Origin: a virus
Virus record (IMG/VR): IMGVR_UViG_3300044731_000589
Span: 1-24,638 of that record
DNA length: 24,638 bases
Strand: one strand, 5' to 3'
Made by a program: the position numbers and the translations under genes. A model generated the notes under the pieces. That model worked only from the letters and a program-made list of their open reading frames with translations. It was not told the DNA's origin and did no database searches. Below, piece after piece: positions 5,545 to 23,311 of the stretch (its first letter is position 1; every line of letters begins with the position of its first letter).

Positions 5545-5574
5545 AATAAGGTTTTAAAAAATGATAAAAAGTGT

Positions 5575-6021: not shown

Positions 6022-6027
6022 AGAAAT

Positions 6028-6077
6028 AAGGTTTTTAAGTTTTAAAAGTTCGGTTTTATAGGTTGACCGAAAACCTT
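6028..6077 (-). promoter_or_regulatory. Structured leader RNA motif, copy A
   Basis: On the minus strand an inner stem TTCGGT (plus 6071-6066) with ACCGAA (6054-6049) and an outer stem AAGGTT (6077-6072) with AACCTT (6033-6028) can form in the leader just before the ATG at 6021. The same architecture, with a changed base pair, occurs at 23015-23063. A regulatory leader or protein-binding operator is likely; it might also act as a weak attenuator. Confidence 0.5.
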
Positions 6078-6081
6078 TTTT

Positions 6082-6363
6082 TTATTTAACTAATGAAAGA
6101 TAGTATTTAAAATCATAGCTTTTAACGCTAAGAAACATAATCATATCATTTGCAGACATTCCAATTGCAGAACCTAATCTTTCAATTTTAGCAATTGAGT
6201 CAGCTGGCAATACTGAATAGATAGAACGGTATTGAGCCCATTCAACACCCTCGCAACCTTTAGAAAGGTTTTCTGATACAAGATCAGATTTAATGCTGTT
6301 AATCATTGATTGAGTGTTTACAATCTGTGATTTCATTTCTGTGAAAATTGTTCTTAAGTACAT
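6082..6363 (-). CDS. Unknown small protein downstream of promoter copy A, 93 aa
   Basis: ATG at 6363, about 46 bases downstream of the predicted start site of the promoter at 6416-6423. Mostly helical: QIVNTQSMINSIKSDLVSEN, then a loop GCEGVEWAQYRSIYSVLPAD and a helix IAKIERLGSAIGMSANDMIM. The last part resembles a small DNA-binding or regulator helix pair only loosely. First gene of a two-gene cassette (this gene, structured leader, 148-residue gene) mirrored by 23266-22528. More AT-rich than the structural genes. Function unknown. Confidence 0.65.
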   Translation of the reverse strand: MYLRTIFTEMKSQIVNTQSMINSIKSDLVSENLSKGCEGVEWAQYRSIYSVLPADSIAKIERLGSAIGMSANDMIMFLSVKSYDFKYYLSLVK

Positions 6364-6409
6364 AGCTTTAAGTTTTAAAAGTGTTAAAATAATTCCCTTT
6401 CGTTGTATG

Positions 6410-6432
6410 TTGATACAAAGATAGAACTACTT
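6410..6432 (-). promoter_or_regulatory. Promoter copy A (TATCTTTG -7 box at 6416-6423)
   Basis: The minus strand carries TATCTTTG, an exact TAnnTTTG match, inside a 23-base stretch identical to 23312-23334. The AT-rich bases upstream (to about 6490) are also alike between the two sites, including a poly-A/T tract. No clear -33 TTTG is visible at standard spacing. The whole gene-free stretch 6364-6495 is leader plus promoter. Confidence 0.65.
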
Positions 6433-6495
6433 ATTTAATAAAAAAACATTTTAGCAAAAAACTTTCTGAAAATTGTAATTTTTTTTTCATTTCGC

Positions 6496-6822
6496 CTAAA
6501 AATCGAAGTGATTTGGCAAAAAATACCCCGAATGATTACTCAATATGTTATAAATTGCCGTTTCCTCAACTGGCAGAACCTTTGTTAATTCAGTAACCGC
6601 AACCGCCTTTTTTTCGTACCGCTCCAAATATTCTGGATAAACCTTAATAACGACATAGCGATTGATCACCGATTGCCTTACAATATTGTACTTAAGCAAA
6701 TAAAAAATAATCGCCTGCAGGTTTTTGATTTCCCCGAGCTTTTCCTCCAGTTCCGCAGCTAATAAGTGACAAAATAAGCGCCTCGAGTTTTTCTGCCTAT
6801 CCCTCGTAAGGTTTATAATCAT
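6496..6822 (-). CDS. Unknown helical protein after the tape measure, 108 aa
   Basis: ATG at 6822, overlapping the stop of the 78-residue gene by 4 bases. A basic N-terminus (MIINLTRDRQKNSRRLFCHL) leads into helices LLAAELEEKLGEIKNLQAII, then a strand-like YVVIKVYPEYLERYEKK and a C-terminal helix with LPVEETAIYNILSNH, which could be a small winged or HTH-like unit. No family recognised. Last gene of the tail transcription block before the promoter at 6416. Confidence 0.65.
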   Translation of the reverse strand: MIINLTRDRQKNSRRLFCHLLAAELEEKLGEIKNLQAIIFYLLKYNIVRQSVINRYVVIKVYPEYLERYEKKAVAVTELTKVLPVEETAIYNILSNHSGYFLPNHFDF

Positions 6823-7055
6823 AGCTCTAAATTTCTAAAATACATAATAACTTTGCCCTTGCAGGCTGCACAGCTTAAATCTTTTTTCATTCGCTTCTCG
6901 ACATTCTCGCCCCTCTGGAATACTTTAATAAACCGATAATAAAAGTAAAACATTCTTTCGAGATCTGAATAAGGTATTAACATTGCTGACTTATTGCGCT
7001 CAATTATTTCCTTAACCTCTGGCAGGTGTTCCGCTGGAATTTCTCTAATATACAT
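6819..7055 (-). CDS. Small protein with a single CxxC knuckle, 78 aa
   Basis: ATG at 7055, 11 bases after the tape-measure stop. Residues 1-50 look helical (LPEVKEIIERNKSAMLIPY, LERMFYFYYRFIKVF); the C-terminal third is basic and holds CAAC (about residues 62-65) followed by KGKVIMYFRN. One CxxC alone is half of a zinc ribbon, so dimer-bridged metal binding or no metal at all are both possible. Position directly after the tape measure suggests a tail-assembly or tail-tip accessory role. Function unknown. Confidence 0.65.
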   Translation of the reverse strand: MYIREIPAEHLPEVKEIIERNKSAMLIPYSDLERMFYFYYRFIKVFQRGENVEKRMKKDLSCAACKGKVIMYFRNLEL

Positions 7056-7066
7056 ATTAAACTATT

Positions 7067-10000
7067 TTAAAATGATGCTGTCGCTCTGATTTCTTTCCTT
7101 TCGTTCCGCCCTTTTTCCACGTCATCGTCGGTGCTGGCTGTATAAATAACTTGCAGGCGGTCAATTCGCCCCTGAGTTTCCAAAACAAGATCCTGCATAA
7201 CTTTTAATCTGTTTTGCTCCTCGCCTGCTCTGTTGAGGCTATCTTGCAGGAATGCAGAAGGAGCACCCACCACGCCACCGAGCGCAAAGTTTGGTATCCG
7301 TGCCGCCTTTAATGTTGAGTAACCAATACGCCTTTGCTGCTCTTGATTAAGCACCACCTCGCCAGTTTTAAGCGTTGCCAGTACATTATCTCCATTACTG
7401 AGGGGCTTTATATTGCCTGAGCTTGTTACACGCCCACCGTCCGCAAATTGTACAACCTCCCCGCTCAATTTACCAACTACTCCACCCTTTGCAAGTGGCT
7501 GAGCTGCGATTAAAGCCGTTTGCGCTGCCCCGATAACTCCTATTATAGCCGCCTCAACAATCTGAGCGCCAGTTGCAAGCTTCAAAGGATTTCCGCCAGC
7601 AGTTAGTGCCGCAGTAACAGCCAAAGCAGTATTTATTATAGACTGAATTATAGCAATTGCTTTTTGTCTTTTTGCGTCTCGCTTTCTCGCTTCCTCCTTT
7701 GCTCTTTCGATTGCTGCCTGATTTGCTATTTCAGCATCGAGCTGCTCCTGATAAAAACGACGTCTTAATCCAGTACTATTTTCGAGTTCCTCTTGTAGTC
7801 TTTCCTGCCTTTGCTGACTGCGCTCAATGTCGGCATCGAAAGCGGCTTGCTGCCTTTCGTTTGCAACGGCAAAAGCCTCGCCTATTAAATCAATACCCTC
7901 TTTAAAATAGCCTAAAACCTGAGCGAATTGATCCTGCCTAATCTTTGTCTGTTCAGCTGCATTTTTCTCGACGTCCTCAGTTTGTTTTCGCTCCTGCTCC
8001 GATAATTCAGTAAATAATTTTTGTCTGGCTAACAAGATTTTATCATATTCATCCTGAGTAATTCCAACTTTTAGCTTTCCGTTTTCGTCTAATAGCTGAG
8101 CCTCCGCATCATTAAAAGCCTGAATTTGGTTTCTTATATTAGCAATTTTATCGATTGTCTCCTGCTCGCTTGCAAGTTTCATCAACTGCTCCTCTTTTTT
8201 GGCATCTGTTTCCTGAGCCAAAGCCTTATTCAAATTCTCTTGATTTTTGAGCTGGGTCATTTCGCCTTTTTCCTGAATGAAGTTAATCTCCTCAGTTAAG
8301 AAAAAGTCCCGCAATTCTTTTAATTTATCCGCCTGCTCTTTTGCTTTGTCGAGTTGCTTTTGGTTTTCGTCGGAATTAACTTTGTCGATCGCATTATTCT
8401 TTTGGATTTCGTATTGAATAAGGATTTCAGCCTGAGCTTTTGCAACCGCTTCAATCTGGATAGTGTTGTCCTTTCTCGCTTGTATTACTTCTTTCGATCC
8501 ATCCCCAAAAGTTTTAATCAATTCTTTCTCCCTTTGCTGAGCTTGTAAAACTAAATCGTCGTACTGCTTTTGGAGTCCTGCTTTTTGTTGTTCAAAGTTA
8601 TTATTTATTTCTGCCAGTTCACGTTGGTAACCGTCTTGTATATTTTTAATTCTTTCCTCAATAGCTTTTGCACTAAGGTCGGACAAAAGTGCCGCCCTTT
8701 GTTTGGCGTTTTTCTCCTCGTCCTCTTGAAACTTTTTCCGATCCTCAGAAAGTTTTTTTGCACCCTCAGCCGCTGCCTCTTGCTGTTTTTTTAATAATTC
8801 GAGATCTACTTTTAAAAGTTTTTGTTTTGTCTTTTTCTCTTCCTCAACTTGTACGACATTGCCAGCTTTTTTTGCATCGTTATAACCTTTGCTGAATGCC
8901 TCCGCAATAGTCATTCCTGCCTTTCCGATTTCCGCTTGCTGCTTTCTTAAATCCTCAATAGCGGTTTTAACATTAGCGCCAAAAACCCCTTTGACTTGTT
9001 CCGCAAATATTTGAGCCTCCAAAAACAAAGATTGAAACGTATTTACAAAACTTAATCCAACTTGCTGCAATGCTGAAACAACCCCCGCAAAAACATTAGG
9101 CAGGTCATTAAATACGCCAATAATATTTGTTATTACAGTGCTTATATTTGTAAATACTGACTGTAAAAAAGGACTTTGCTTTATCACATTACCCACTATG
9201 TCATACCAACTCGCAAGGGCATTTAATAAAATTGGAAATAAAGTCGCTATACCCGTAAGCGGTCCTAATAAAAATTTTACAGCAACTCCCAAAAAATTAA
9301 ACTGAACGCCACCGATTTTTAAATTTTCGAAGACCTTTCCAAATGAAGTCGATAATCTGCTAAAGCTATCTGTCAAAGGCTTAAACAAATCTATAATTTC
9401 CGCAATAACAAGAAAAAATCCAGTTTCAAGTTGTTTGCCAAAATTGCTAATACCCCCAGTCGATTTTTCAATCCTTTGCGCTGTTTCAATTTGCGACAAT
9501 GCCAGCTCCCTATTTGTGTTAACAGCATCCATATTTTTTTTAGAAAACTCTGTAATCTCACCGCTCGCACTTTGAAAGGCTTCTGGATATTCAGTTATTG
9601 TTTTAAGGTATTCGTCAGCATTGCCACGTCCCTCGACAAGCGTTCCCTCTAATTTTTTTAACGCCTCCTCAAAGCTAATTCCTAAATTTTTACTAAGTGA
9701 CTGAGCCGCTGCAGATATTGTTCTCGCATCTGTATTGAAAGTTTCAGCCAATGCCGTTGTCGATGCTGTCAGCGTGTTAAGGTCTTCATCGTAGGCACCA
9801 GAAAATTCAGCAACCGTGTTTTTGGTTTCATTAATTTTAGAAATAAACTGGTCTAGCTTTTGGATAGCCTGCCCGATCAACTTCGCACCTTGGAATGCTA
9901 CAAAGCCACCGATTAAAGCCTTACCAAATCCGCTTAATTGCCCCTCGCTATTTCTTAATTGACTTGAAAAAGCCTCAAAGCCTGGAATAGTTTGATTTAA

Positions 10001-10456
10001 AGATCGTGTGAGCCTGCCTAATGTTTTAGGATAGTTACCGACATTTCGCTGGAACTGCCCGACCTGACCGTCTACATTTTTAAGAGTTTTGTCAAGTTGT
10101 TGGATTTCTTTTTGCATTTTGTCCAACTCCTCAGTCGTTTTCGAGCCGTCTAAAGCCGCATTTTTAAACTCTTTCCGTAGTTTATTGAGCTTTGCCGCAA
10201 GTGCATCGTAGGCACCGACCGCTTTTTCGGGTAAAAATGACTTGTTTACGTCATCCTGAGCCTTTTTTAGCGCCTTTTGTTGTGCAACTAACTGACCAAG
10301 CTTATCTCTAAGCTCCATAACCTCTTTTGCACCCTCCTCAGTCGTTTGGTCAAGTGCATTTATTTCTGAATTTGTTTGCTTTATAGCTGCATTTAGCTGG
10401 TTTATTGACTGTATTCCATCAATCGAAATAGTAAAACCGACTACTGTGTTGGACAT
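7067..10456 (-). CDS. Tail tape-measure protein, 1129 aa
   Basis: ATG at 10456, one base after the stop of the 706-residue tail gene. Long Gln/Lys/Glu coiled coils occupy about residues 15-140 and 540-930. A hydrophobic stretch (LGVAVKFLLGPLTGIATLF and following residues, about 385-430) and a second near the C-terminus (AIAIIQSIINTALAVTAAL through AAIIGVIGAAQTALIAAQ, about 930-990) are typical of tape measures that insert in the host membrane during DNA delivery. The C-terminal region has the Gly-rich FADGGRV and GDNVLATLKTGEVVLN motifs seen in Bacteroidetes phage homologues. Its length should set the tail length; at roughly 1.5 angstrom per residue the tail would be long and non-contractile or contractile, undecided. 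Confidence 0.93.
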   Translation of the reverse strand: MSNTVVGFTISIDGIQSINQLNAAIKQTNSEINALDQTTEEGAKEVMELRDKLGQLVAQQKALKKAQDDVNKSFLPEKAVGAYDALAAKLNKLRKEFKNAALDGSKTTEELDKMQKEIQQLDKTLKNVDGQVGQFQRNVGNYPKTLGRLTRSLNQTIPGFEAFSSQLRNSEGQLSGFGKALIGGFVAFQGAKLIGQAIQKLDQFISKINETKNTVAEFSGAYDEDLNTLTASTTALAETFNTDARTISAAAQSLSKNLGISFEEALKKLEGTLVEGRGNADEYLKTITEYPEAFQSASGEITEFSKKNMDAVNTNRELALSQIETAQRIEKSTGGISNFGKQLETGFFLVIAEIIDLFKPLTDSFSRLSTSFGKVFENLKIGGVQFNFLGVAVKFLLGPLTGIATLFPILLNALASWYDIVGNVIKQSPFLQSVFTNISTVITNIIGVFNDLPNVFAGVVSALQQVGLSFVNTFQSLFLEAQIFAEQVKGVFGANVKTAIEDLRKQQAEIGKAGMTIAEAFSKGYNDAKKAGNVVQVEEEKKTKQKLLKVDLELLKKQQEAAAEGAKKLSEDRKKFQEDEEKNAKQRAALLSDLSAKAIEERIKNIQDGYQRELAEINNNFEQQKAGLQKQYDDLVLQAQQREKELIKTFGDGSKEVIQARKDNTIQIEAVAKAQAEILIQYEIQKNNAIDKVNSDENQKQLDKAKEQADKLKELRDFFLTEEINFIQEKGEMTQLKNQENLNKALAQETDAKKEEQLMKLASEQETIDKIANIRNQIQAFNDAEAQLLDENGKLKVGITQDEYDKILLARQKLFTELSEQERKQTEDVEKNAAEQTKIRQDQFAQVLGYFKEGIDLIGEAFAVANERQQAAFDADIERSQQRQERLQEELENSTGLRRRFYQEQLDAEIANQAAIERAKEEARKRDAKRQKAIAIIQSIINTALAVTAALTAGGNPLKLATGAQIVEAAIIGVIGAAQTALIAAQPLAKGGVVGKLSGEVVQFADGGRVTSSGNIKPLSNGDNVLATLKTGEVVLNQEQQRRIGYSTLKAARIPNFALGGVVGAPSAFLQDSLNRAGEEQNRLKVMQDLVLETQGRIDRLQVIYTASTDDDVEKGRNERKEIRATASF

Positions 10457-10457
10457 T

Positions 10458-12578
10458 TTATACCGTGTTTATTTTTGCTTCTAAAATTGTACTTTGAATA
10501 TTGGCATCCGCCCCGACTTCCTTATTATCTAAAACAAAATATGTCTTTGTGCTTTGATTTTTCGCCACGTCAAAGGTATTTATTTCCTGCAGGATATAAG
10601 TATTGTTATTTATAAAGATTTTGTCTCTAAAGGTCAAATTTTGGATTTTAAGCACGTCCCAAAGTATAAACAATTCGAGATATTTCCCTCCGCTTCGCCT
10701 GACCATTTCCGAAAGATAAAACCTTTTTAGCAACCCAGCCACCGCCAGACCGTTAACAGTTACATCCCCAAAGCTGAGCGAGGTCTGAAAGCCGATTGTA
10801 TCATTGTAATCAATCATATAATTGAGCGGGGTTTTATAGTCAGTAACTGAGGTACCGTCAAAAACATTTATAGTTCCGTTTTCATCTCCAGTTGAAACTG
10901 GATCGGACACTAATAAGCGAGGAAGCATTTGAGAAACAACTTCTGTACCCGTTCCAGTTTCTAAAAAGTTTGTAGCCCATACAATCGGAAGCATTGGTGT
11001 TTTTGTGCTGTTTACGTTTACAATCTCGCTATCTGCCACAACTAAAGTCGGAGCAAAAAAAGGATTTTCGACAACTGTTTCGCCAACTTTAAACCTATTA
11101 GTCGGGAACTGATAGCGAGCCTCTAATATTCCTAAATTAGCATTGAGATTAAGCGCCTCAACCGTCGGGTCGTTGCTGTCATCTTTCCATTTTAGTCTGA
11201 GCTGGCTTAATTGCTTAGTGTCGCTTACTAACTCCCCGCCCTTGCTTAAATCTACAAAAGGAGTATAATCTAAACCCTTTTGCGCTGTATAAAATCCATC
11301 TTCGAGCTGTAATGATGCGGGTCTGCTTTCCAGAATAAAATCGTCCGCAGGCTCAATATAAACCGTCCTGCTGCCCTCGTTTGTTTCGAATACTAAATTA
11401 AAAGCGTGAGCGAGCCCTCGAATTAAATCAATAACTTTGAGAGATGGGTCTATAACATATTTTAAATTCAGGTTAAAGCCGTCTACTATTTCAGCCTCAC
11501 CGATTATATCGATATAATAATTTGCATCCGCACCGCCAAACGTTCCGCCAAAACCAAAATATAAATTATCGCCTGCAGACATTTGAACAACAGTTTCAAA
11601 ATAATAATTTGAATCTACGTTTATTGTTGGTGTGCCTAATAAAATAATTGGAGCTATGTTTACAGCATAAAAAAAATCTGCTTGACCAGTTGCTGTTACA
11701 TTATATATTTCAGCCGTAAACCTTATTAAAAAAAATCCATTTGTCGGAGCTGTATAAATTCCTGTTGTATTGTCATAAGGATTAGGACCAATTAAAGGGA
11801 AAACAGTTTGATTTGTGCAAATAATTTGATTGCCTGGAAAGGTATAAGGAACTGCAAGCTCGTTAAAACTTGCATTTAAATAGTCTTCTCCATATTGCCC
11901 CATTAAATACCTACTCAATATTGGCACTGGCATAATAAGACGTTCCGCAAAAGCTGAGCTAAAGAAAAACGAAATCATTGTATACCCTATCGAGTTGAAT
12001 ACCTTATTCAATACATCGACTACAAATATTGCAGGGTGACTGTCTTCCAAAGCATCGAGCTGCCCCAAAGTCGTATAATCTTTGAGCTTTAAAGGTAAGT
12101 ATTTAAAATCGTCTGTCGGATAACTATTATACCAATGAGTAAGGTTGTCCAGATAGGAATAAGTATGAGCCGTGAAAGGTAAATCCTTTATAAGCAAATC
12201 ACCTATTCGAGTACTCCAGTCTGCATTGTTTCCGTAAAAAGCAATTTTATAACTTTTGCCCTGCCAGAAATATTGATCTTGCCTCAAAGTAACCGACTGC
12301 AATTGGCAGCGCCCGATAAAAAAGGGCAGACCGTCCACTTCGATACTCGCAGACAAAAAAGCCTGCTCATTTATTGTAAAAATTGCAGGGTCATAGAATT
12401 GATTAAAAATATTATCATTGTGCTTCGTTCCTGGCAGCTCAAAAGAATACTCCGACCGACTGCCTGAGTTAATAGCCAAACCTTCCCGACTTCTTAGCGA
12501 ATAAGTCAAAGGCAAATTTAAACCGTTTGGAGGCAACTCAGCGACCTGACCGTCAATTATAATTTTAATGTCTGCCAT
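10458..12578 (-). CDS. Large tail-tip protein with an inserted jelly-roll-like domain, 706 aa
   Basis: ATG at 12578, adjacent to the stop of the 428-residue gene. Residues 1-200 (starting MADIKIIIDGQVAELPP, with SREGLAINSGSRSEYSFELP) and 370-700 form the conserved tail-tip frame found upstream of tape measures in Bacteroidetes phages. Between them, about residues 255-365, lies a segment TTGIYTAPTNGFFLIRFTAE ... MSAGDNLYFGFGG whose order matches C1q/TNF-like jelly rolls. Such inserts usually bind receptors or carbohydrates. The protein probably sits at the tail tip and contributes to host recognition. The core has no enzymatic motif I can see. Codon use and strand agree with its neighbours. 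Confidence 0.75.
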   Translation of the reverse strand: MADIKIIIDGQVAELPPNGLNLPLTYSLRSREGLAINSGSRSEYSFELPGTKHNDNIFNQFYDPAIFTINEQAFLSASIEVDGLPFFIGRCQLQSVTLRQDQYFWQGKSYKIAFYGNNADWSTRIGDLLIKDLPFTAHTYSYLDNLTHWYNSYPTDDFKYLPLKLKDYTTLGQLDALEDSHPAIFVVDVLNKVFNSIGYTMISFFFSSAFAERLIMPVPILSRYLMGQYGEDYLNASFNELAVPYTFPGNQIICTNQTVFPLIGPNPYDNTTGIYTAPTNGFFLIRFTAEIYNVTATGQADFFYAVNIAPIILLGTPTINVDSNYYFETVVQMSAGDNLYFGFGGTFGGADANYYIDIIGEAEIVDGFNLNLKYVIDPSLKVIDLIRGLAHAFNLVFETNEGSRTVYIEPADDFILESRPASLQLEDGFYTAQKGLDYTPFVDLSKGGELVSDTKQLSQLRLKWKDDSNDPTVEALNLNANLGILEARYQFPTNRFKVGETVVENPFFAPTLVVADSEIVNVNSTKTPMLPIVWATNFLETGTGTEVVSQMLPRLLVSDPVSTGDENGTINVFDGTSVTDYKTPLNYMIDYNDTIGFQTSLSFGDVTVNGLAVAGLLKRFYLSEMVRRSGGKYLELFILWDVLKIQNLTFRDKIFINNNTYILQEINTFDVAKNQSTKTYFVLDNKEVGADANIQSTILEAKINTV

Positions 12579-13865: not shown

Positions 13866-13867
13866 AG

Positions 13868-15742: not shown

Positions 15743-15744
15743 TT

Positions 15745-16029
15745 TTACGATTTTTTACTATGTACTTCCGATAATCTTTTTTGATAATCTGCCTCCGCTT
15801 TGCAGGCTGCTAAATATGTGAAAGCCTCGTATAAATCCGCCTGCTCTGCTGACTGTAATGGAGTGAGCGTTGGCTGGTTAAATATTCCACTTTCTGCAAT
15901 TGATTTTAATGTCAGGTACCATCCAAAACTGTCGTTTAATTTTTCGATGCCTGCTTTTCTCTCATCAAATCCTGAGCTGCCATATAAATTTGCATATTTT
16001 GTTGAGATATTTCGCTTCGTTTCAGCAAA
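15745..16029 (-). CDS. C-terminal extension read by probable -1 frameshift (94 residues)
   Basis: This frame overlaps the end of the 254-residue gene and has no ATG anywhere; the only possible starts are GTG at 16137 or TTG codons before the T run. It continues from the nine-T run (16035-16027) to a stop at 15745 and encodes a mixed region (FDERKAGIEKLNDSFGWYL) and a helix (YEAFTYLAACKAEADYQKRL). If ribosomes slip back one base at T-TTT-TTT, the fusion would have about 318 residues (224 + 94). The pattern matches G/GT tail-assembly chaperones. Alternatives are an independent gene from a weak GTG, or an indel in the T run. Confidence 0.65.
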   Translation of the reverse strand, partial: FAETKRNISTKYANLYGSSGFDERKAGIEKLNDSFGWYLTLKSIAESGIFNQPTLTPLQSAEQADLYEAFTYLAACKAEADYQKRLSEVHSKKS

Positions 16030-16700
16030 AAAAAAGCAACCTTTAGGCAATTTTCTAAGTTCCAAGACATAAACATCTCCTCCCTTTTGAGCAGTTTGTC
16101 GCTGTACATTTCGCCCTCCTTCCGTACCAATACGCACATAATTTTAGCCAGTGCGCCCCAGTTGCCATTATCCAGAGCTTTGAGATTAGCTTCGAACTGC
16201 GATGCCTCTGCAAACTCAATTAACGTGCTTTTTTCCATATATCGCATAGGTAAATACCAAAGCTCACCATCTACCATTAAGACATTAGTATATTCTGGCT
16301 CCTCATATTTATTCATTATTCGAATAATAGTCGAGTAAAGGTACTCCAATTGCCCAACGTTCATACCCTCTCCGTGCTTACCGCCTCCGAGTATTACTTC
16401 CTCCGATATACCCACCGCAAAGTGAGCAACCACCCTCGCAAAGTACGGATAGACCTTTCTGTACATCACAACATCGTCGCAAGCGTGGACCGCCTCGTCA
16501 AATTCCTTCCAAGCTTTCTCTTTTTCCTGCTCAGTCTCAGCGCTATTTCTCGCAATTGATGCCGCCTCAATACGTTTGAACTCTGCAGGCATTGTAGGCT
16601 CGACAAAGGTCATAAAGTCGATATACTGCTTTAAGGTTATGTCCGCAAGTTCGGAAGGGAAAGTGAAAGATCCGCCTTTCGATATGCTTATATTATACAT
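15936..16700 (-). CDS. Tail-assembly chaperone-like protein (zero-frame product), 254 aa
   Basis: ATG at 16700, overlapping the upstream stop by 8 bases. It starts MYNISISKGGSFTFPSELAD then ITLKQYIDFMTF, a short strand region leading into helices, and is helical to the end (about residues 55-250). Phage tail-assembly chaperones share this style: an N-terminal strand element, a helical body and a slippery site near the 3' end. Here the site is the T run at codons 222-225 (VAFFLL). The chaperone would coat the tape measure during tail assembly. The gene lies about 5.5 kb upstream of the tape measure, farther than usual, which weakens the identification. Confidence 0.65.
   Translation of the reverse strand: MYNISISKGGSFTFPSELADITLKQYIDFMTFVEPTMPAEFKRIEAASIARNSAETEQEKEKAWKEFDEAVHACDDVVMYRKVYPYFARVVAHFAVGISEEVILGGGKHGEGMNVGQLEYLYSTIIRIMNKYEEPEYTNVLMVDGELWYLPMRYMEKSTLIEFAEASQFEANLKALDNGNWGALAKIMCVLVRKEGEMYSDKLLKREEMFMSWNLENCLKVAFFLLKRSEISQQNMQIYMAAQDLMREKQASKN
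16027..16035 (-). promoter_or_regulatory. Nine-T slippery site for -1 frameshifting
   Basis: On the minus strand the zero frame reads GCT TTT TTT TTG, so T-TTT-TTT forms a perfect X-XXY-YYZ heptamer. Slipping back one base joins the 254-residue frame to the ATG-less downstream frame. I saw no convincing downstream pseudoknot. Confidence 0.6.
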
Positions 16701-17019
16701 TCTTTTTGCGTCCTTTTTTTGGTATTAAATCGCCGTCTGTTTCATCTATTGCCAGCAAGTTTGTCGGCTCTTCCATCTCCTCTCTTTTCTTTGCCGCCTC
16801 CATTAGTCCGATAGGTTTTGGCTTTGGTTTCGCCTGCTCATTTAATACGGTTGTAGGCTTAACCTCTTTTTTAAATTTGCTGTCCCTTACCTTTTGACCG
16901 TGATTTTGTTTAAGGTAGTTAGCCGTTTGATTAAATAGCGCCTTTGTTGTAAAATCGTGGCTGTAAGCGTTTAAGATCGCCATCCATTGCGCTCCGATCT
17001 GGAGTTCCTCATTTGTCAT
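16693..17019 (-). CDS. Unknown protein upstream of the chaperone-like gene, 108 aa
   Basis: ATG at 17019. The N-terminal half is helical (ELQIGAQWMAILNAYSHDF, LFNQTANYLKQNHGQKV); the second half is Lys/Pro/Glu rich and looks disordered (KPKPKPIGLMEAAKKREEME) with a basic end KKGRKKNV. Such tails are common in scaffold-like or nucleic-acid-associated small phage proteins. It overlaps the next ATG by 8 bases. No family recognised. Confidence 0.65.
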   Translation of the reverse strand: MTNEELQIGAQWMAILNAYSHDFTTKALFNQTANYLKQNHGQKVRDSKFKKEVKPTTVLNEQAKPKPKPIGLMEAAKKREEMEEPTNLLAIDETDGDLIPKKGRKKNV

Positions 17020-17040
17020 AATAATTGAATTTTGGAGTTA

Positions 17041-17376
17041 TTAAAATGGCAGGTCTTTTTCCTCTGCCTCGTTATTGCTTTGAGTGTTTGCTTTGGCACC
17101 AGTCAAGACCTTGACCATATAAGCCTTAATCATTGTTTTTTTGTCCTCAGTATAATTTATTTCGCCCTCTACGTAAACTGTCTCGCCCTTTTTAGCTTCG
17201 AGCTTCCACCACGCTAAGACAGCGTGCCAGTATGTTTGCTCCACCCATTTTTTATTATTGTCATAATATCCCGACGTTGTAGCCAAATTTAATTTTGTGA
17301 AGGGCTTGCCGTTTTTGGCTTCCTTTGTTTCGGTGTCTGAGCCTAAGCGCCCGACTAATGTAACTTTGTTGATCAT
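17041..17376 (-). CDS. ssb: Single-stranded DNA-binding protein, 111 aa
   Basis: ATG at 17376. It begins INKVTLVGRLGSDTETKEAK, the first OB-fold strands of bacterial-type SSB, then FTKLNLATTSGYYD, EQTYWHAVLAWWKLE and GETVYVEGEINY, all in the family order. After a short Gln/Asn linker it ends EEKDLPF, matching the acidic DDIPF tail that recruits partner proteins. It coats single-stranded DNA during replication, recombination or repair. At 111 residues it is shorter than host SSB (usually 140-180), as in phage versions. Its place between large terminase and tail genes is unusual for a replication gene and suggests late co-expression. Confidence 0.95.
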   Translation of the reverse strand: MINKVTLVGRLGSDTETKEAKNGKPFTKLNLATTSGYYDNNKKWVEQTYWHAVLAWWKLEAKKGETVYVEGEINYTEDKKTMIKAYMVKVLTGAKANTQSNNEAEEKDLPF

Positions 17377-17383
17377 AATTTTT

Positions 17384-18814
17384 TTATCCGTATGCTAAAA
17401 TGTTTCCATTTTGATTGTCTACTAAGTACCTAACAGCATATCGCAAAGCGTCCAGAGCGTGGTCGTGTATTTGGAAAGGCTCGTTTGTCGGATTGCCGTC
17501 TTTATCCTCCTTAAATCTATACTGTCCAATCTCAAAGATAACATTTTTTGCTGAATTTACAATATAAATATCATATTCGAGTACTTTTAATATGCCATAA
17601 TAGACGGAATTTGAGCCCTTTGCGGTCGGTTTTACATTAAAATACTGCCTTAGATCTTGTATTATTTCAGGTCGTGCGCTGTCTGCAATGACAACCGAAC
17701 CCCTCGATAATTTTAGCCAGTGCATTTCCTGAGCTAATTGTCCAGATGTTAATCCAGTTTTATAAATTGCTTCATTTACATAGAGCCTTTTATTTACTTT
17801 GTCTATCTTGACGTGTACCATTGCAGTCGGTTCGTTATATCCAAAGTCCAGACCATAGGCATCGAGCCCCTTAATAGCATCAAATTCAGTTTGAGTAATA
17901 GTTTTAAAGCGTGGATAAACTAAGCCGCCCTCAAAAGGTTTCGGATCTTGCTGGTAAAGAGCGTGGAAAGCTCTGGGGTTCGCTGACTTAATCTCGTTTA
18001 ATCTGTTTATTGAGTGCTTTTCCTCCCATAGCGCCTCGCCAATCTCTCTCGGATCTTGCTCGCTTAATTCGCCCTCAGCTATTGCAGGGAGCGACAATAC
18101 TGTCCACTCGTTATTATTGTTCAAAGTCTTTAAAATTCGCCCGCTTAGATCGTCTAAATTCCACCTTGTTTGAGTTACTATTATTTGGCTGTCATTATGC
18201 AAGCGAGTTAAAAAAACCTGAGTAAACCAATCCCATACCCTCGCCCGATATGTTTGGCTTTCCGCTTCCAAAGCGTCCTTTATAGGGTCATCAATTATGC
18301 CAATATCCGCAGGTGTTCCAGTTAGTGAGCCACCGACCCCGACAGACTTATAAAAACCTTTGTGCCCGACAATTTCAAATATATCTGAGTTCCTTAAATA
18401 GCTTCCTATTGCAGCCGTGCGAATATTGCTTCCATTCAATTGCGTATCTGGAAAAATATCTCCGTACTCGTCCGAGTCAATTATCCTTTGTACGTCTCTG
18501 TTAAAGCTCGTAGCAAGTGATGCCGAATAAGAGCAACCGATAACCTTTAATTTTGGATTTGTGCCAAGTAAAAAGGCAGGTAATCGCCTTGATGTCAATT
18601 CACTTTTTCCGTGCTGAGGTGGCATAAAAACCATTAGCTTTTTGATTTTCCCCTCTGCAAATTTCTGTATGTATTCAATCAATAAATCGTGATGCCAGTT
18701 AAATTGGTAATCGCTTTTTGTGTATTCAACAAACTCCCTAAAGTCATATTTTGCTATATGCTTACTTATCTCTTTCGAGCTTAAGGGCAATTTCTTTAAG
18801 TTGTTTGAGCTCAT
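17384..18814 (-). CDS. terL: Terminase large subunit, 476 aa
   Basis: ATG at 18814, overlapping the small terminase by 53 bases. The ATPase half has Walker A MPPQHGKSE (Gly69-Lys70-Ser71), Walker B IGIIDDP (Asp175-Asp176) and the coupling motif TQTRW (214-218). The nuclease half has the acidic residues of the RNase H-like fold: Asp323 in GLDFGYNEP, Asp378 in VVIADSARPE, and Asp451/Asp455 in DHALDALRYAV. The enzyme pumps DNA into the prohead through the portal and cuts the concatemer. Length and all motifs are complete. Confidence 0.97.
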   Translation of the reverse strand: MSSNNLKKLPLSSKEISKHIAKYDFREFVEYTKSDYQFNWHHDLLIEYIQKFAEGKIKKLMVFMPPQHGKSELTSRRLPAFLLGTNPKLKVIGCSYSASLATSFNRDVQRIIDSDEYGDIFPDTQLNGSNIRTAAIGSYLRNSDIFEIVGHKGFYKSVGVGGSLTGTPADIGIIDDPIKDALEAESQTYRARVWDWFTQVFLTRLHNDSQIIVTQTRWNLDDLSGRILKTLNNNNEWTVLSLPAIAEGELSEQDPREIGEALWEEKHSINRLNEIKSANPRAFHALYQQDPKPFEGGLVYPRFKTITQTEFDAIKGLDAYGLDFGYNEPTAMVHVKIDKVNKRLYVNEAIYKTGLTSGQLAQEMHWLKLSRGSVVIADSARPEIIQDLRQYFNVKPTAKGSNSVYYGILKVLEYDIYIVNSAKNVIFEIGQYRFKEDKDGNPTNEPFQIHDHALDALRYAVRYLVDNQNGNILAYG

Positions 18815-19127
18815 CCAAGTTTAATTTTGTTAGGTCATTATTAACCACCTCGATCGGAGCACCTTCCGCCCCAGTTATCTCAGTCCGTTGTGTTGCTTTG
18901 CCAAAGGTGTAACTCAAAAGCATATCGACCGCTTTTAAATCGCCTTTGAGCGCCTTATTGACCACTACCGACATAAGACCGTCAATTAACTGCGTTCCGT
19001 TCTTTTCCTGACTGAGCAGGTCTTGAAGTACGACTTTAATATCTCGAAGCGATCCTTTTTTCCTGCCTGCAGGATTTCCGCTTTGACCCTTTTTGAATTT
19101 TGTGTGCTCTGGTGGTACTCCTTTCAT
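18762..19127 (-). CDS. Terminase small subunit candidate (DUF5681-type), 121 aa
   Basis: ATG at 19127. The N-terminus TKFKKGQSGNPAGRKKGS is the DUF5681 signature, a basic motif frequent in small phage proteins encoded immediately before large terminase. The centre (LRDIKVVLQDLLSQE, LMSVVVNKALKGDLKAVDML) is helical, and the C-terminal helix LTKLNLDELKQLKEIALKLE could serve oligomerisation or contact with the large subunit. Small terminases recognise the packaging site and stimulate the ATPase. Placement and overlap with terL strongly support this role. Confidence 0.82.
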   Translation of the reverse strand: MKGVPPEHTKFKKGQSGNPAGRKKGSLRDIKVVLQDLLSQEKNGTQLIDGLMSVVVNKALKGDLKAVDMLLSYTFGKATQRTEITGAEGAPIEVVNNDLTKLNLDELKQLKEIALKLERDK

Positions 19128-19138
19128 TTTTCCCTGCT

Positions 19139-19531
19139 TTATCCCTGCAAATTTGAATTAAATACTTTTTCTCTGTCGATAATAACTTGAAGCATATTTT
19201 TTAAAATACACTCTACAACCCTTCTATCATTTTTAATATCTACTAAAATATCGCAGCTATGTAAATCAATTGCATCCATATAAAAAATGTCGCTGTCATT
19301 ATCTTGACTTTCAAATTTATTCCTATCAATATATTTTTTGTCAATAGCAAAAACAAAGCATCCGTGAAGATTAGCTCTGTCAAAAGAGTTCGTCAAATAT
19401 ATTCCATTGCAATCATTGTATTCAACACAAAGCTTTTTGCTTTCGAGGATTAAATCAAATCCGTAAAGGTCTGTTCCGTGATAAAAATAATTATCATTTT
19501 GAAATTTTCGACTATCTGTAATCAATTGCAT
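19139..19531 (-). CDS. ADP-ribosyltransferase-like protein, 130 aa
   Basis: ATG at 19531. The segment YFYHGTDLYGFDLILESKKL followed about ten residues later by NGIYLTNSFDRANLHG follows the order of H-Y type ADP-ribosyltransferase folds: strand with His-Gly-Thr, helix, then a Tyr in a strand and a helix with Asn/Ala. Later strands (CFVFAIDKKYI, FYMDAIDLH) fit the fold core, and Glu/Asp candidates near the C-terminus could complete the triad, but I cannot fix the third residue. Such enzymes modify host or phage proteins or nucleic acids; DUF3990-type small proteins are the closest style I recall. The gene is AT-rich, sits between packaging genes and looks like an inserted accessory gene. Confidence 0.5.
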   Translation of the reverse strand: MQLITDSRKFQNDNYFYHGTDLYGFDLILESKKLCVEYNDCNGIYLTNSFDRANLHGCFVFAIDKKYIDRNKFESQDNDSDIFYMDAIDLHSCDILVDIKNDRRVVECILKNMLQVIIDREKVFNSNLQG

Positions 19532-19542
19532 ATAATAATATT

Positions 19543-19728
19543 TTAATTTTGGCTTTCTAATTTCTTAATCATTGTGGTTATTGTTTCCATCCGCCCCTGA
19601 ATTTTGTCGAGCTTATCCTCGATTAGATCGTCCGACGGATTAGTCAAAACAAACCAGCTGAGCATCTCGCTGCAGCCTCGCAAATATTCGTACTCCCTGC
19701 GGAGCCTTGTCCTATCGTTCCGTGTCAT
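19543..19728 (-). CDS. Small coiled-coil protein, 61 aa
   Basis: ATG at 19728, overlapping the upstream stop by 4 bases. Arg-rich start (MTRNDRTRLRREYEYLRG), a hydrophobic patch EMLSWFVLTNP, then a heptad-like helix LIEDKLDKIQGRMETITTMI. This suits a small coiled-coil accessory protein or a scaffold-like factor. No family recognised. Confidence 0.65.
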   Translation of the reverse strand: MTRNDRTRLRREYEYLRGCSEMLSWFVLTNPSDDLIEDKLDKIQGRMETITTMIKKLESQN

Positions 19729-20189
19729 CCCTCTATTTGTTTAACTTTCCTAATTGCCCAGTCCACACCCTCAGTTCCGCCCCAGCAGTCCCAAACTATT
19801 GTTCCGCACCCCTCCTCATAACTCTTCCCCGCAAACCTCCTAAACCTTTGAAACGCTGCCATTCTTTTGATTGTGTCGAAGCTTATCGGTTCTCTATTTG
19901 CTAACTGATTAGCTCGAGCCCATCCTACTGGAGTTCCGCATCCTCTCGGGTTGCCTGTTTCATCCCTCCACTTTAAAGCCCTCTTTGCGTTTGTTGTCGC
20001 TGCCTGTGGATAATCTGTGAAAGTTTCCTGAGCTAAAATATTCTTTTGCGCTTGCTTTTCGTATGTGACGAGACAAACTGCATACCGTTGTTTCTGGTCT
20101 GGGTAGTCTGTATTCATATTTTCGTCCGACATACAGCGGTCAATAAATTTGTCGACGTCTTCTGTTGGTCTGGGTGTGGGTATTGGCAT
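19725..20189 (-). CDS. Widespread phage protein of unknown function, 154 aa
   Basis: ATG at 20189. Two recognisable modules: residues 1-45, MPIPTPRPTEDVDKFIDRCM with DYPDQKQRYAVC, seen as an N-terminal extension in many phage head proteins; and residues 58-154, with YPQAATTNAKRALKWRDETG, CGTPVGWARANQLANRE, ISFDTIKRMAAFQRF and WDCWGGTEGVDWA. The second module also recurs in phage head or packaging genes. Conserved Cys and Trp residues suggest a compact fold. Function is not known to me; a role near packaging is inferred from its neighbours. A possible hairpin lies upstream at 20222-20238. Confidence 0.75.
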   Translation of the reverse strand: MPIPTPRPTEDVDKFIDRCMSDENMNTDYPDQKQRYAVCLVTYEKQAQKNILAQETFTDYPQAATTNAKRALKWRDETGNPRGCGTPVGWARANQLANREPISFDTIKRMAAFQRFRRFAGKSYEEGCGTIVWDCWGGTEGVDWAIRKVKQIEG

Positions 20190-20221
20190 AGTTATTTTTT
20201 ATCTTTTTGTCTTTGCTATAA

Positions 20222-20238
20222 ATCCAAGAAAACTTGGT
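20222..20238 (-). terminator. Weak hairpin between methyltransferase and the next gene
   Basis: The minus strand has CCAAG-TTTT-CTTGG with flanking A and T bases, a 5-bp perfect stem just after the methyltransferase stop and followed by ATTTATAG. It may be a weak terminator or processing site; the T tract is short. Confidence 0.3.
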
Positions 20239-20239
20239 T

Positions 20240-21406
20240 TTATATTATTTGTCCGTTTCGTTTAATTGTTAAAGTAGGGTCGAGCTTTTTCATTCTGTCG
20301 ATAATTACTTGGCAGTATTTGGGTTCTAACTCCATACCGTAACATTTACGTTTAAGTTGGTGAGCTGCTACCATTGTCGAACCTGAGCCGAGAAATCCAT
20401 CATATATAATATTGCATTCATAATTTTCTAATATTTTAATATTTAAACCAACTGGCTTTTGGGTAGGGTGTACTCTTTTATGTAATTCCAATTCTCTACT
20501 TCCTTCCCTACTTAAACCGTTCCATAAATATTCGTAAAGTCTTGATGCTTTATTAAATGAAGTCCAAGCCATTTCAAAATCTGCAAAATTGCCAGTATTT
20601 TTTTTGTACCATACAATCCATCCCATTGATGGGGGTAAAAAATCAGTAAAATAATTACCTCCAAAAATAATATAGTTTTCAAAACCTAATGAAATACAAG
20701 TATTATAAAAATTCCTTGCTGTATCTGTTGTGTCATCCCCTATAATTTCAGAAAATCCCTTAGTACTATTTACAACTTTACCAGATTTACCTCCAAATTT
20801 TAATGCGCCCCCGCCACCGACACTTGTATTATTTACAACTTTTATCCCATAAGGAGGGTCAGTAAATACCATATCCGCCTTTTGCCCATTCATCAACTTT
20901 GCAACCGCATCGCTGTCGGTACTATCACCACAAAGCAACCTATGTTCGCCAATCTCGAATAAATCCCCAATGACTATGTCAGTTTCGATGCCTCCGTCTG
21001 GTACTTCGTAATCGTCCTCCTCCGCTTCGAGTATTTGCTCCTCAGCTTCAAAATTTGGCACTTCCAGACCCCACTCTTCCAATTCCACAGCGTCCCACTC
21101 ATTCGCAAGCATATCCCAGTCCCACTCGCCAGTATTTGCATTCAAACGTATATTAAGCTCCTTCTCGTCCTCCTCGCTAAGGTCAACAATTACGCACTCA
21201 ATCTCCTTATACCCCAATTTTTTTAACTCCCTGACCCTAAAGTGACCGCCTACAATATACCCCGTTTGCTTATTGAAGATTATCGGCTCAACAACTCCAA
21301 ACTTTTCGAGGCTCGCTTTCAGGTGCTTTTCCTGCTTTGCCGTGCTTTGTCTGGGATTGTATGGAGCTGGCGTTAATTCAGATAATTTCTTTTTCTCTAT
21401 TATCAT
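20240..21406 (-). CDS. ParB-like domain fused to DNA methyltransferase, 388 aa
   Basis: ATG at 21406, overlapping the upstream stop by 4 bases. Residues 5-90 are a ParB/Srx-type domain with YNPR (16-19) and the core GYIVGGHFRVRELKKLGY. Residues 140-388 are an amino-methyltransferase of permuted beta class: motif IV TDPPYG (Asp183-Pro-Pro-Tyr186), a recognition region 190-300, HPTQKP (313-318), then motif I DGFLGSGSTMVAAHQLKR and GMELEPKYCQVIIDR. It should methylate adenine N6 or cytosine N4. Such fusions are frequent in phages and protect the genome against host restriction or mark DNA for other steps. All key residues are present. The region encoding residues 195-300 looks more AT-rich than the ends. 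Confidence 0.92.
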   Translation of the reverse strand: MIIEKKKLSELTPAPYNPRQSTAKQEKHLKASLEKFGVVEPIIFNKQTGYIVGGHFRVRELKKLGYKEIECVIVDLSEEDEKELNIRLNANTGEWDWDMLANEWDAVELEEWGLEVPNFEAEEQILEAEEDDYEVPDGGIETDIVIGDLFEIGEHRLLCGDSTDSDAVAKLMNGQKADMVFTDPPYGIKVVNNTSVGGGGALKFGGKSGKVVNSTKGFSEIIGDDTTDTARNFYNTCISLGFENYIIFGGNYFTDFLPPSMGWIVWYKKNTGNFADFEMAWTSFNKASRLYEYLWNGLSREGSRELELHKRVHPTQKPVGLNIKILENYECNIIYDGFLGSGSTMVAAHQLKRKCYGMELEPKYCQVIIDRMKKLDPTLTIKRNGQII

Positions 21407-22029
21407 AACTCAATCAAAGTAAAATTTATCAATTGATTAGCGGAAAAAATCTTTATTGCCTCGAACCAACGTGCATCGGGTACCACCATACAACCAGCTG
21501 ACCAGTTATCGACAAAAGACCCGACTCCGCCCCTATGAAAGTTTATGCCATACCAGCCCTTTGTTTTTACTGTCTTATCGAGCTTTCTGTCTTTGTTCCC
21601 ATCCCGATAAATCTCAATAGCACCCGATTGATAAAAGTAAGGAGCACCCAGCCATAAGGAAGACCACGACCCAGATGTGACAAACTTATGACTTCCGATT
21701 ACTTGCTGCTCGCAGGCAACCGCTGCACCAGTAATGCCGCCAACGGTTAGCGGGTTAAAAATATAAAAATCGCCTGGAGTAGTTGAGCAGGGCAATATCA
21801 TATCGGCAACTCGATTATTAAATCTCACTACATAGTCCGCAAATTTGTTGTCGAAGCTTTGGTCGGTTCTAATCCAGACTAAGTCATTAACTGGCTTTAC
21901 CCAGCCTCTTATGTTCATTTCGGCATCAATCCATTGCTTAGCCCCGCCTAATGTAAGCGGTCCGACTATTCCGTCAATGGCTCCAGTATAATAGCCTCTG
22001 TCTTTTAAAATCTGTTGAAATCCTTTCAC
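21403..22029 (-). CDS. Peptidoglycan-binding, L,D-transpeptidase-like protein, 208 aa
   Basis: The start is GTG at 22029; no upstream ATG exists in this frame, and the frame opens directly in a peptidoglycan-binding repeat (FQQILKDRGYYTGAIDG followed by IVGPLTL, residues 4-27). The C-terminal part shows the L,D-transpeptidase/YkuD-style active site: INFHRGG (His165) and NWSAGC (Ser177-Ala-Gly-Cys180), with a central strand region (SGAIEIYRDGNKDRKLDK). It could cut or rejoin peptide cross-links. The motif lacks the usual His in S-H-G-C, so it may be a hydrolase variant. No signal peptide is seen. Preceded by a TATATTTG promoter box. Confidence 0.72.
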   Translation of the reverse strand: MKGFQQILKDRGYYTGAIDGIVGPLTLGGAKQWIDAEMNIRGWVKPVNDLVWIRTDQSFDNKFADYVVRFNNRVADMILPCSTTPGDFYIFNPLTVGGITGAAVACEQQVIGSHKFVTSGSWSSLWLGAPYFYQSGAIEIYRDGNKDRKLDKTVKTKGWYGINFHRGGVGSFVDNWSAGCMVVPDARWFEAIKIFSANQLINFTLIEL

Positions 22030-22045
22030 AATCTTTTGTAATTTT

Positions 22046-22075
22046 ATACAAATATAAAAGTATTTTGTATTTTTG
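22046..22075. promoter_or_regulatory. Divergent promoters with an inverted repeat
   Basis: The 72-base gap between divergent genes has two TAnnTTTG boxes: TATATTTG on the minus strand (22056-22049) and TATTTTTG on the plus strand (22068-22075). ATACAAATA (22046-22054) and TATTTTGTAT (22061-22070) form an imperfect inverted repeat spanning both, a possible operator. Confidence 0.55.
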
Positions 22076-22101
22076 TGCTATTAACCTAAAAAATATTTAC
22101 T

Positions 22102-22434
22102 ATGTCTTCATTAAAAACCTGCGTCGTTATTTCGGCTGAGCTAATTTCTGAAATTGGCAAAATCCTTCAGGATAAAAAAGTTTTATTCGCTGAGGTTGTC
22201 GGGCTGGTTCCTGAGCTTATGAAATTGCCAAAATTCGTTACTAATATTGACGAGGCTATTGCAGAGCTTAAAGCTGGCATTTCACCTCAATACAGCGAGG
22301 AAATTAAATTGGCAGTGGCTGAAAAGTTAGATCTACCTAATGACAAAGCGGAGCTAATTGTCGAGCAGTGCATTAACTGGCTTATCGTGACTTCTTCCGT
22401 TGTGTTTCAGGTTGTCAAAGTTTCAAAAAAATAG
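22102..22434 (+). CDS. Plus-strand moron-like protein of unknown function, 110 aa
   Basis: ATG at 22102, the only plus-strand gene in the window. It has its own promoter box (22068-22075) and a terminator directly behind it. The product is mainly helical: CVVISAELISEIGKILQDKK, FAEVVGLVPELMKLPKFV, a helix IDEAIAELKAGI, and a second helical half ending in CINWLIVTSSVVFQVVKV, which is hydrophobic enough to be membrane-associated or buried. No signal peptide, no catalytic motif. Independent promoter and terminator with opposite orientation are the features of a moron gene, often expressed from a prophage to change host properties; that is inference. Not recognised. Confidence 0.75.
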   Translation: MSSLKTCVVISAELISEIGKILQDKKVLFAEVVGLVPELMKLPKFVTNIDEAIAELKAGISPQYSEEIKLAVAEKLDLPNDKAELIVEQCINWLIVTSSVVFQVVKVSKK

Positions 22435-22481
22435 TGTTTAAATAGTTTGTTTGTTTGGTCTTTCTAAGTGATTAAAAAGTG

Positions 22482-22512
22482 AAAGCCCCGCAGTGATTGC
22501 AGGGCTTTTTTT
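22482..22512. terminator. Bidirectional intrinsic terminator between convergent genes
   Basis: AAAGCCCCGCA (22482-22492) and TGCAGGGCTTT (22498-22508) form a stem of 10 matched pairs with one C-A mismatch and a 5-base loop; on the plus strand it runs into seven T. On the minus strand the same stem is followed by a T-rich stretch (CACTTTTTAA). It closes both the plus-strand gene and the Gp157 gene. Confidence 0.85.
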
Positions 22513-22527
22513 ATTATACAGTATTTG

Positions 22528-23007
22528 TTATCGAATATTGAGCGAGTAATTTTCTACAATTAAAGCTCCTTGCACTTCCTGACCGCTCTCGAGTGCTTCC
22601 TTAATAGCTGTCTTGTTTGGCTCTGTCTTAATGCGCAAAAATTCAGCTCCTAACAAACTTTCATCCGTGATGCTTACTGACTTACTTTTGCGGCTCGATA
22701 TTGTCACAAAAGCCGTTTTAATTTGACCGTGGGCAACAACTGACTCGAGTAGTCTGTCCGCTAATTTGTCGGCTGAGTTTTCGTATCGTTTAGCCAGATC
22801 CTGCAAGCGCTTTGCTTCCGCCTTAATCATCTCTGACTGCGACTTTAATTGCTTAATGACATAGACATAGCCTTCACCCTTAGTAAGTCGCTCAGACTCG
22901 GTAATTTCGAGTGCTGCTTCGAGTTCTGGAGTCATCTCGCCTCCGTTGTTTTCAATTTGGCTGTAAACTTCATAAAGTTCAGCATCGATGTTAAATAGAT
23001 TTTTCAT
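22528..23007 (-). CDS. Siphovirus Gp157-family protein, 159 aa
   Basis: ATG at 23007. It begins LFNIDAELYEVYSQIENNGG, then a long coiled coil YVIKQLKSQSEMIKAEAKRL with DLAKRYENSADKLADRLLES, then the basic beta end ITSSRK-like segment (VTISSRKSKSVSITDES) and EPNKTAIKEALESGQEVQGA with the final strand VENYSLNIR. This order is that of the Gp157 family (PF05565), found in siphovirus early genes and linked to replication or phage-resistance phenotypes. Directly preceded by the structured leader copy B and by a small promoter-driven gene. Length (159) is typical. Confidence 0.88.
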   Translation of the reverse strand: MKNLFNIDAELYEVYSQIENNGGEMTPELEAALEITESERLTKGEGYVYVIKQLKSQSEMIKAEAKRLQDLAKRYENSADKLADRLLESVVAHGQIKTAFVTISSRKSKSVSITDESLLGAEFLRIKTEPNKTAIKEALESGQEVQGALIVENYSLNIR

Positions 23008-23014
23008 AATAAAT

Positions 23015-23063
23015 AAGGTTTTAAAAAGTTAAAAAATACGGTTTGAGGCTGACCGTAAACCTT
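23015..23063 (-). promoter_or_regulatory. Structured leader RNA motif, copy B
   Basis: On the minus strand an inner stem TACGGT (23057-23052) with ACCGTA (23042-23037) sits next to an outer stem AAGGTT (23063-23058) with AACCTT (23020-23015), just before the Gp157 ATG. Compared with copy A at 6028-6077, one stem pair is swapped T-A to A-T while pairing is kept. Confidence 0.5.
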
Positions 23064-23266: not shown

Positions 23267-23311
23267 AATAGTAAGGTTTTTTGTGTGATTGTTAATTGCT
23301 TTCTGAATAAC

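Follow-up and report, generated by a model that had tools for sequence, protein, structure and literature searches.

We examined a short RNA element that occurs twice in the IMG/VR virus record IMGVR_UViG_3300044731_000589; the whole 24,638-base stretch is referred to here as the window, and nearly all of its genes lie on the minus strand. Element A occupies positions 6050-6077 (minus strand, 28 nucleotides (nt), AAGGTTTTCGGTCAACCTATAAAACCGA when read from 6077 to 6050) and element B positions 23038-23063 (minus strand, 26 nt, AAGGTTTACGGTCAGCCTCAAACCGT when read from 23063 to 23038). Both are situated between operon genes, starting 4 nt (A) or 8 nt (B) after the stop of a small upstream gene, with the ATG of the next gene 28-30 nt on. 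The small gene before element A (6082-6363, minus) encodes 93 amino acids (aa) and belongs to a family of which some members in other phages have the element and some lack it; the one before element B (23072-23263, minus) encodes 63 aa. The genes that follow are unrelated to each other, one encoding a 148 aa protein of unknown function (after A, 5575-6021, minus) and the other a Sipho_Gp157/Mu Gam-like protein (after B, 22528-23007, minus; PF05565, 2.1e-30; phrog_253, 2.7e-36). A preliminary description of this DNA had correctly pointed out both the two near-identical elements and the unrelated genes behind them. It had read the element on the plus strand, however, whereas the genes and the element lie on the minus strand, and it had overlooked the stop codons in front of the two copies.

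The two operons are headed by two copies of a 90-nt promoter repeat, D1 (6397-6486 and 23299-23388), and in each of them one element occupies the first intergenic gap. The repeats contain the Bacteroidetes-type -7 box TATCTTTG at 6416-6423 for operon 1 and at 23318-23325 for operon 2 (both minus), and the elements lie about 250 and 340 nt from these boxes. By sequence reading, operon 1 ends at the intrinsic terminator GCCGCTATCC..GGTAGCGGTTTTTTT (3973-4003, minus) and operon 2 at a terminator hairpin with a T-run on both sides (22483-22508). The latter is situated between the Gp157 gene and a lone plus-strand gene of 110 aa (22102-22434) that converges on it.

The consensus of the element is xxGG-UUU-nCGGU-NAN-CCyy-(n)AA-ACCGn', 26-33 nt long, and corresponds to an H-type pseudoknot. 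Stem S1 has 3-4 base pairs (xxGG/CCyy) and stem S2 has five (nCGGU/ACCGn'); loop L1 is UUU, L2 is NAN and L3 ends in AA. In element A, read on the minus strand, these parts are S1a at 6077-6074, L1 UUU at 6073-6071, S2a at 6070-6066, L2 CAA at 6065-6063, S1b at 6062-6059, L3 at 6058-6055 and S2b at 6054-6050. Element B is arranged in the same way, with S1a at 23063-23060, L1 at 23059-23057, S2a at 23056-23052, L2 at 23051-23049, S1b at 23048-23045 and S2b at 23042-23038. The covariance model CM R1 recovered element A, a member of its training set, with 46.1 bits (E 1.1e-10) and element B, from outside that set, with 31.5 bits (E 8.4e-7). Taken by itself, the window makes a weak case against chance. 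Its 17-mer core with up to three mismatches gave 2 matches versus 0.20 expected, at least two were seen in 3 of 100 shuffles, and folding z-scores of the single copies were modest (-1.1 to -2.1). The case becomes strong once copies from outside the window are added.

Scanning viral contigs for exact matches to AAGGTTTNCGGTCANCCTN{0,8}AAACCG yielded at least 47 stretches outside the window, and where the genes could be read, nearly all copies lay in short intergenic gaps and in sense orientation to the genes. Counts from viral contigs are lower bounds obtained from samples, the loci are partly related by descent, and open reading frames (ORFs) were called by simple rules. A looser scan for the core, together with scans in which one part at a time was freed to find the fixed positions, added further copies. 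At least 121 non-redundant core matches were obtained from viral contigs, and the pair closing S2 (n-n') is present in 109 of these 121. Host genomes gave 33 non-redundant core matches, about eight of them in phage-like or mobile contigs; since n-n' is paired in only 17 of the 33, most host matches are attributed to chance. Well-supported copies are nearly confined to phages and usually present once per genome: among 48 records scanned, 43 have one copy, three have two, and two records have three (G004) and eight (G001), compared to two in the window. The element was also found in two cultured marine phages, Polaribacter P12002L and P12002S. There was no significant match in the reference phages T4, SPO1, KVP40, P-SSM2, S-PM2 and HTVC008M, nor in phi38:1, Flavobacterium phages 11b and 1/32 and one Rhodobacteraceae phage. 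BLAST matches in Enterococcus, Bacillus, Puniceispirillum, Acidianus and plasmids were set aside, being chance matches inside or antisense to genes where inspected.

Covariation was analyzed in 67 distinct motifs that had been selected by core sequence alone, using 5000 shuffles for comparison. At n-n', which closes S2, 59 of the 67 motifs have a standard pair versus 27.9±3.7 after shuffling (shuffle maximum 41), and the third S1 pair (x1-y1) is likewise standard in 59 motifs versus 41.2±2.6 (shuffle maximum 51). The fourth S1 pair was not significant in these motifs (32 versus 27.1±3.5). Control pairings of the same columns stayed near the shuffled values except for x1-n' (31 versus 20.8±3.0). 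In a separate alignment of 36 rows (A2), 93.2% of the pseudoknot cells are paired and slid structures reach at most 54%; because the A2 rows were partly picked for pairing, the test on the 67 motifs is the cleaner one. Two interleaved helices that both show covariation place the predicted fold in the H-type pseudoknot class, and it is very probable that the element is real and folded as drawn.

Variants recovered in the scans are consistent with this fold. Compensated changes in S2 were found at locus L184 (CCCGT/ACGGG), which was the sole genuine member from the scans with S2 freed, other relaxed-S2 matches being mostly chance, and at L189 (GGGGU/ACCC), where a GGCGAAAGCC hairpin is also inserted in L3. 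The L189 variant lies around 1683-1725, behind a homologue of a capsid gene. When S1 was freed, the combinations CAGG/CCTG, CTGG/CCAG, AGGG/CCCT, ACGG/CCGT and ATGG/CCAT appeared, and GACG/CGTC is a likely addition. In the viral-contig scans with L1 freed there was no convincing match without UUU, and genuine matches with L2 freed retained NAN at a length of three. A nested hairpin GGUUU/AAACC can be drawn in every core match; it was rejected as the fold because it is broken at L184 and L091, where the pseudoknot is intact. S2 itself is broken in two window-related phages, at L584:2290-2317 (the same copy as L604:1308-1335; ACCA for ACCG) and at L587:1467-1494 (CGCT for CGGT), and these may be decaying elements.

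The preliminary description had drawn an outer stem AAGGTT/AACCTT directly adjacent to an inner stem, a fold that the pseudoknot supersedes. Its inner stem nCGGT/ACCGn' is our S2, including the swap of the outermost pair from T-A in element A to A-T in element B. The outer stem did not hold up: AACCTT is part of an A/T-rich leader that also precedes the gene at 5544, which has no element, and its position near the ATG is not conserved, as most outside copies have no such sequence behind them. This leader, AAACCTTATTn0-4ATG, is found on the minus strand before three window genes (5542-5554, 6019-6034 and 23005-23021; 3 matches versus 0.01 expected) and before many MKTL-family genes without an adjacent element. 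The 5' AAGG pairs instead with the CCU of the loop, as the covariation of S1 indicates. The letters reported as a GG(T/C)TG loop are indeed present, as the complement of CARCC, but they represent L2 plus the 3' strand of S1. The central proposal, an RNA structure kept independently of the flanking coding sequence and common to other phages, is borne out by the outside copies and the covariation. The earlier observation is thus partly confirmed and its interpretation partly supported.

The position of the element was assessed in 104 well-supported instances, with a stop defined as the end of an ORF of at least 30 codons and a near start as one within 40 nt. In 86 of the 104, the distance from a stop codon to the start of the element is 3-13 nt, as it is for 8% of random positions, and the spacing peaks at 5-8 nt. 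A stop codon lies at most 13 nt upstream in 89 instances, of which 66 also have a near start downstream and 23 do not; a near start alone is present in 11 instances and neither feature in four. A start codon within 40 nt downstream is therefore present in 77 of the 104. Depending on the locus, the element is followed by a gene, a tRNA, a terminator or a promoter, the last three being frequent among the loci that have no near start. A tRNA gene follows at L051, L306, L311 and L324 (identified by ARAGORN) and at L155, L326 and L338 (read from the sequence), and an intrinsic terminator follows at L063, L353, L304, L310 and L501. The element stands directly before a promoter at L351 and in seven of the eight matches in G001, a 111.7-kb record, where the promoter is TTGACTTT. 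G001 (L556, L557) has a sigma70-like promoter TTGACTTTCTCTAAAA(N)TGATA before dozens of its genes, and other hairpin or pseudoknot-like elements, e.g. CCTTGGGGTGAGGATAAAAAGCCCC, also stand directly before it.

The upstream genes fall into 83 clusters among 113 and the downstream genes into 79 clusters among 104, which rules out a link to a single gene family on either side. Some recurrent neighborhoods were noticed nonetheless. A small winged helix-turn-helix (wHTH)-like gene, mostly homologous between loci, precedes the element and often a tRNA at L155, L302, L306, L311, L324, L326, L328 and L338; paralogues of this gene in the same genomes are without the element, and several have terminators or hairpins. 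At L507, L514, L523, L540 and L562 the element is directly behind a gene that by eye resembles nicotinamide phosphoribosyltransferase (from the C-terminus only at L562), and at L507 a gene resembling phosphoribosyl pyrophosphate synthetase, again by eye, comes after it. Three loci of a tRNA-rich subfamily of large phages (L084, L152, L314) have a common box CTTTGGTGT..AACACA upstream of the element, which may belong to a larger RNA there.

Several findings tie the element to the gene in front of it. Of the element-upstream genes, 61% have a promoter-like site in the 150 nt before them, compared to 23% of the remaining genes on the same strand (Fisher p 6e-11); they also follow wider gaps (median 121 nt versus 29 nt). 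Between the Polaribacter phages P12002L and P12002S, the upstream gene plus the element differ at one base, a free L2 position. The element of P12002S is directly followed by an additional gene, and the gene after that, which comes directly behind the element in P12002L, then has no element in front. Of 31 homologues of the upstream genes that have no element, 10 are followed within 90 nt by an intrinsic terminator, compared to 3.7% of control ORFs (p 1e-7). At one of these, L585, the transcription unit ends, as the next gene is convergent. Our reading of these sequences, which rests chiefly on L585 and on the tRNA-linked family, is that the slot may be occupied by a terminator where the unit ends and often by the pseudoknot where it continues. 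The preliminary view of the element as a leader of the downstream gene fits poorly in general, given the 23 instances with a near stop and no start within 40 nt and the way the element stays with the upstream gene in the Polaribacter pair, and this placement is probably wrong as a general rule.

Taken together, the element probably steers the expression of the rest of the gene cluster. Our tentative best guess, by analogy, is that it resembles the phage put and nut RNAs and acts in cis on the transcription complex. Such a scheme would build on what is read from the sequences: the existence and fold of the element, its sense orientation, its spacing from the stop codon, its association with promoters, and the terminators that homologues lacking the element have in its place. 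The ribosome would halt at the stop codon, and the untranslated element would fold on leaving RNA polymerase. Much like nut or HK022 put RNAs, the folded element would then influence the elongating complex in cis, either allowing transcription through the remaining genes of the operon or tuning their output. RNA polymerase would be the partner, elongation the step affected, and antitermination rather than attenuation the presumed sign. Operons usually continue past the element and the upstream gene is often the first after a promoter, as this scheme would have it. The strict bases in L1, L2 and S2 suggest a specific and widely conserved partner, and we lean towards RNA polymerase or the ribosome over a plain roadblock. 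Several points weigh against a put/nut-like role. In G001 a promoter directly follows the element, and the gene behind that promoter could be transcribed independently. The 150 nt downstream show no enrichment of intrinsic terminators (4 of 104 versus 6.4%), some upstream genes are away from promoters (e.g. the capsid-like gene in L343), and the element matched no known antiterminator by sequence or in Rfam. Also, terminators in the same slot would fit a 3'-end structure equally well. The bolder form of this idea, in which a protein-independent pseudoknot of 26-33 nt, emerging behind the first gene of phage operons, reprograms host RNA polymerase in several bacterial phyla and represents a new, minimal fold for processive antitermination, appears rather doubtful.

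Another possibility is that the pseudoknot blocks 3'-to-5' exonucleases such as PNPase and RNase R and stabilizes the message of the upstream gene, serving inside operons, where a terminator would be unusable as further genes follow. The terminator hairpins in the same slot of element-less homologues place this explanation close behind the put/nut-like one; it is also favored by the element keeping to the upstream gene in P12002L and P12002S and by loci with a small gene, the element and a tRNA in a row, where tRNA processing would leave the element near the mRNA 3' end. However, L1, L2 and S2 are more uniform in sequence among very different phages than a mere roadblock would require, and messages at L063/L353, L304, L310 and L501 are already end-protected by an intrinsic terminator 15-60 nt past the element, so that we regard protection as possible but on balance somewhat doubtful. 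A compact H-type fold with invariant loop bases could also be a regulatory aptamer for a ligand or an RNA-binding protein controlling translation of the downstream gene, like a preQ1-I-type riboswitch or the T4 gene 32 pseudoknot. In clostridial-type loci the element is indeed a few nt before the Shine-Dalgarno sequence, and starts within 40 nt are frequent. This role is nevertheless fairly unlikely, as the downstream genes are so diverse, tRNAs follow at several loci and a promoter in G001, the MKTL gene has the element directly in front in just a few of 33 loci, and S2b leaves the ribosome-binding site uncovered. The operator for a translational repressor suggested in the preliminary description is a poor general fit in view of the 23 instances with a near stop and no near start and of the Polaribacter pair; its other suggestion, an attenuator, survives as an unlikely option. 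A weak terminator reducing transcription past the first gene would agree with the terminators in the same slot and with the element directly before promoters in G001 and L351, but there is no consistent U-run after S2 (e.g. ...ACCGG-AGAAAGGAGG at L121, L322 and L327), and tRNA and protein genes are directly downstream.

The remaining explanations have less in their favor. Near confinement to phages, usually with one copy per genome and in many gene contexts, might be expected of an RNA decoy against RNA-guided or RNA-antitoxin host defence, like RNA anti-CRISPRs or pseudo-antitoxins; the occurrence of one core among phages whose hosts differ widely and the tight linkage to stop codons and promoters, which a decoy would not need, make this very unlikely. 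An operator or recombination site acting at the DNA level, or a chance or mosaic repeat, could be imagined since phage modules recombine between genes and single-copy folding scores are modest. This explanation was already disfavored and is highly improbable in view of compensated changes in two interleaved stems, the sense orientation and the position behind stop codons. Pseudoknots that stimulate read-through or frameshifting have a similar spacing from the stop codon, here 4-10 nt, and the frame is open from copy A into the 148 aa gene. Recoding was likewise disfavored and is now hardly credible: open extensions of at least 20 codons are as common as at 930 control stops (31% versus 32%), the spacer modulo 3 is even (24/32/33), all three stop codons are used, and tRNAs follow at several loci.

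Rfam 15 gave no match to the element, whether in the window (E<=5) or in 16 other loci (E<=1), and literature searches found no description of it, which is not proof of absence; it is apparently an undescribed phage RNA element. It may have gone unlisted because it is short, pseudoknotted and thus hard for nested covariance methods, and present mainly in uncultured phages. In phage lambda, nutR lies behind cro, in untranslated RNA right after the first gene of its operon, and nut consists of boxA and a boxB hairpin, to which N and Nus factors bind. The placement is alike; the element described here is a pseudoknot of other sequence. In HK022, two put copies lie behind early promoters, with putR about 270 nt from the start, and no protein factor is needed (PMC9378689). 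Each put is about 70 nt long with two stem-loops, and its structure includes an RNA triple helix (PMC9378689). We consider put the nearest known system in position and logic: both are phage cis RNAs, and the window has one copy behind each of its two promoters. The likeness has its limit in the promoter-like sites, which at 61% versus 23% are not universal, and put comes from lambdoid phages in contrast to a single pseudoknot of 26-33 nt in phages of several host kinds. HK022 put suppresses pausing and termination via contact with the beta' zinc-binding domain; antitermination by the element described here is a tentative proposal.

Among described pseudoknot motifs of mobile elements, STAXI (RF01728) comes nearest, being short, of unknown function and located near mobile-element genes (PMC2864571). 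It differs in having 2-3 tandem repeats, UUCG loops and an Enterobacteriales distribution, compared to single units with other sequence and loops here, and there was no RF01728 match. The element likewise gave no match to the preQ1-I riboswitch RF00522 and has no tie to queuosine genes. That riboswitch is an H-type pseudoknot of about 34 nt with a short U-containing L1, an A-rich L3 and, immediately ahead of the 3' strand of P1, a C that pairs with the ligand. Size and topology are similar; the base before the S1 3' strand is A, T, G or C in our element, and the invariant bases differ. Intrinsic terminators share the slot behind homologous genes, but the element has no GC hairpin with a U-run and genes or tRNAs directly follow, so the absence of a consistent U-run led us to reject this identity. 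Type III toxin-antitoxin RNAs (ToxI-like) are tandem pseudoknots before a toxin gene, in contrast to the single, Rfam-negative copies here, and no toxin gene was recognized beside the window copies.

A defined RNA fold tied to a defined place, behind a stop codon and often first after a promoter, offers a precise handle on how phages with few recognizable regulators run their operons. If it acts on RNA polymerase, the ribosome or an exonuclease in several phyla, it could also serve as a portable genetic part. A Type-P5 twister ribozyme (RF02684, 54.6 bits) was also noticed at L293:3954-4008 (minus strand) in a contig of a metagenome-assembled genome, about 275 nt downstream of the element.

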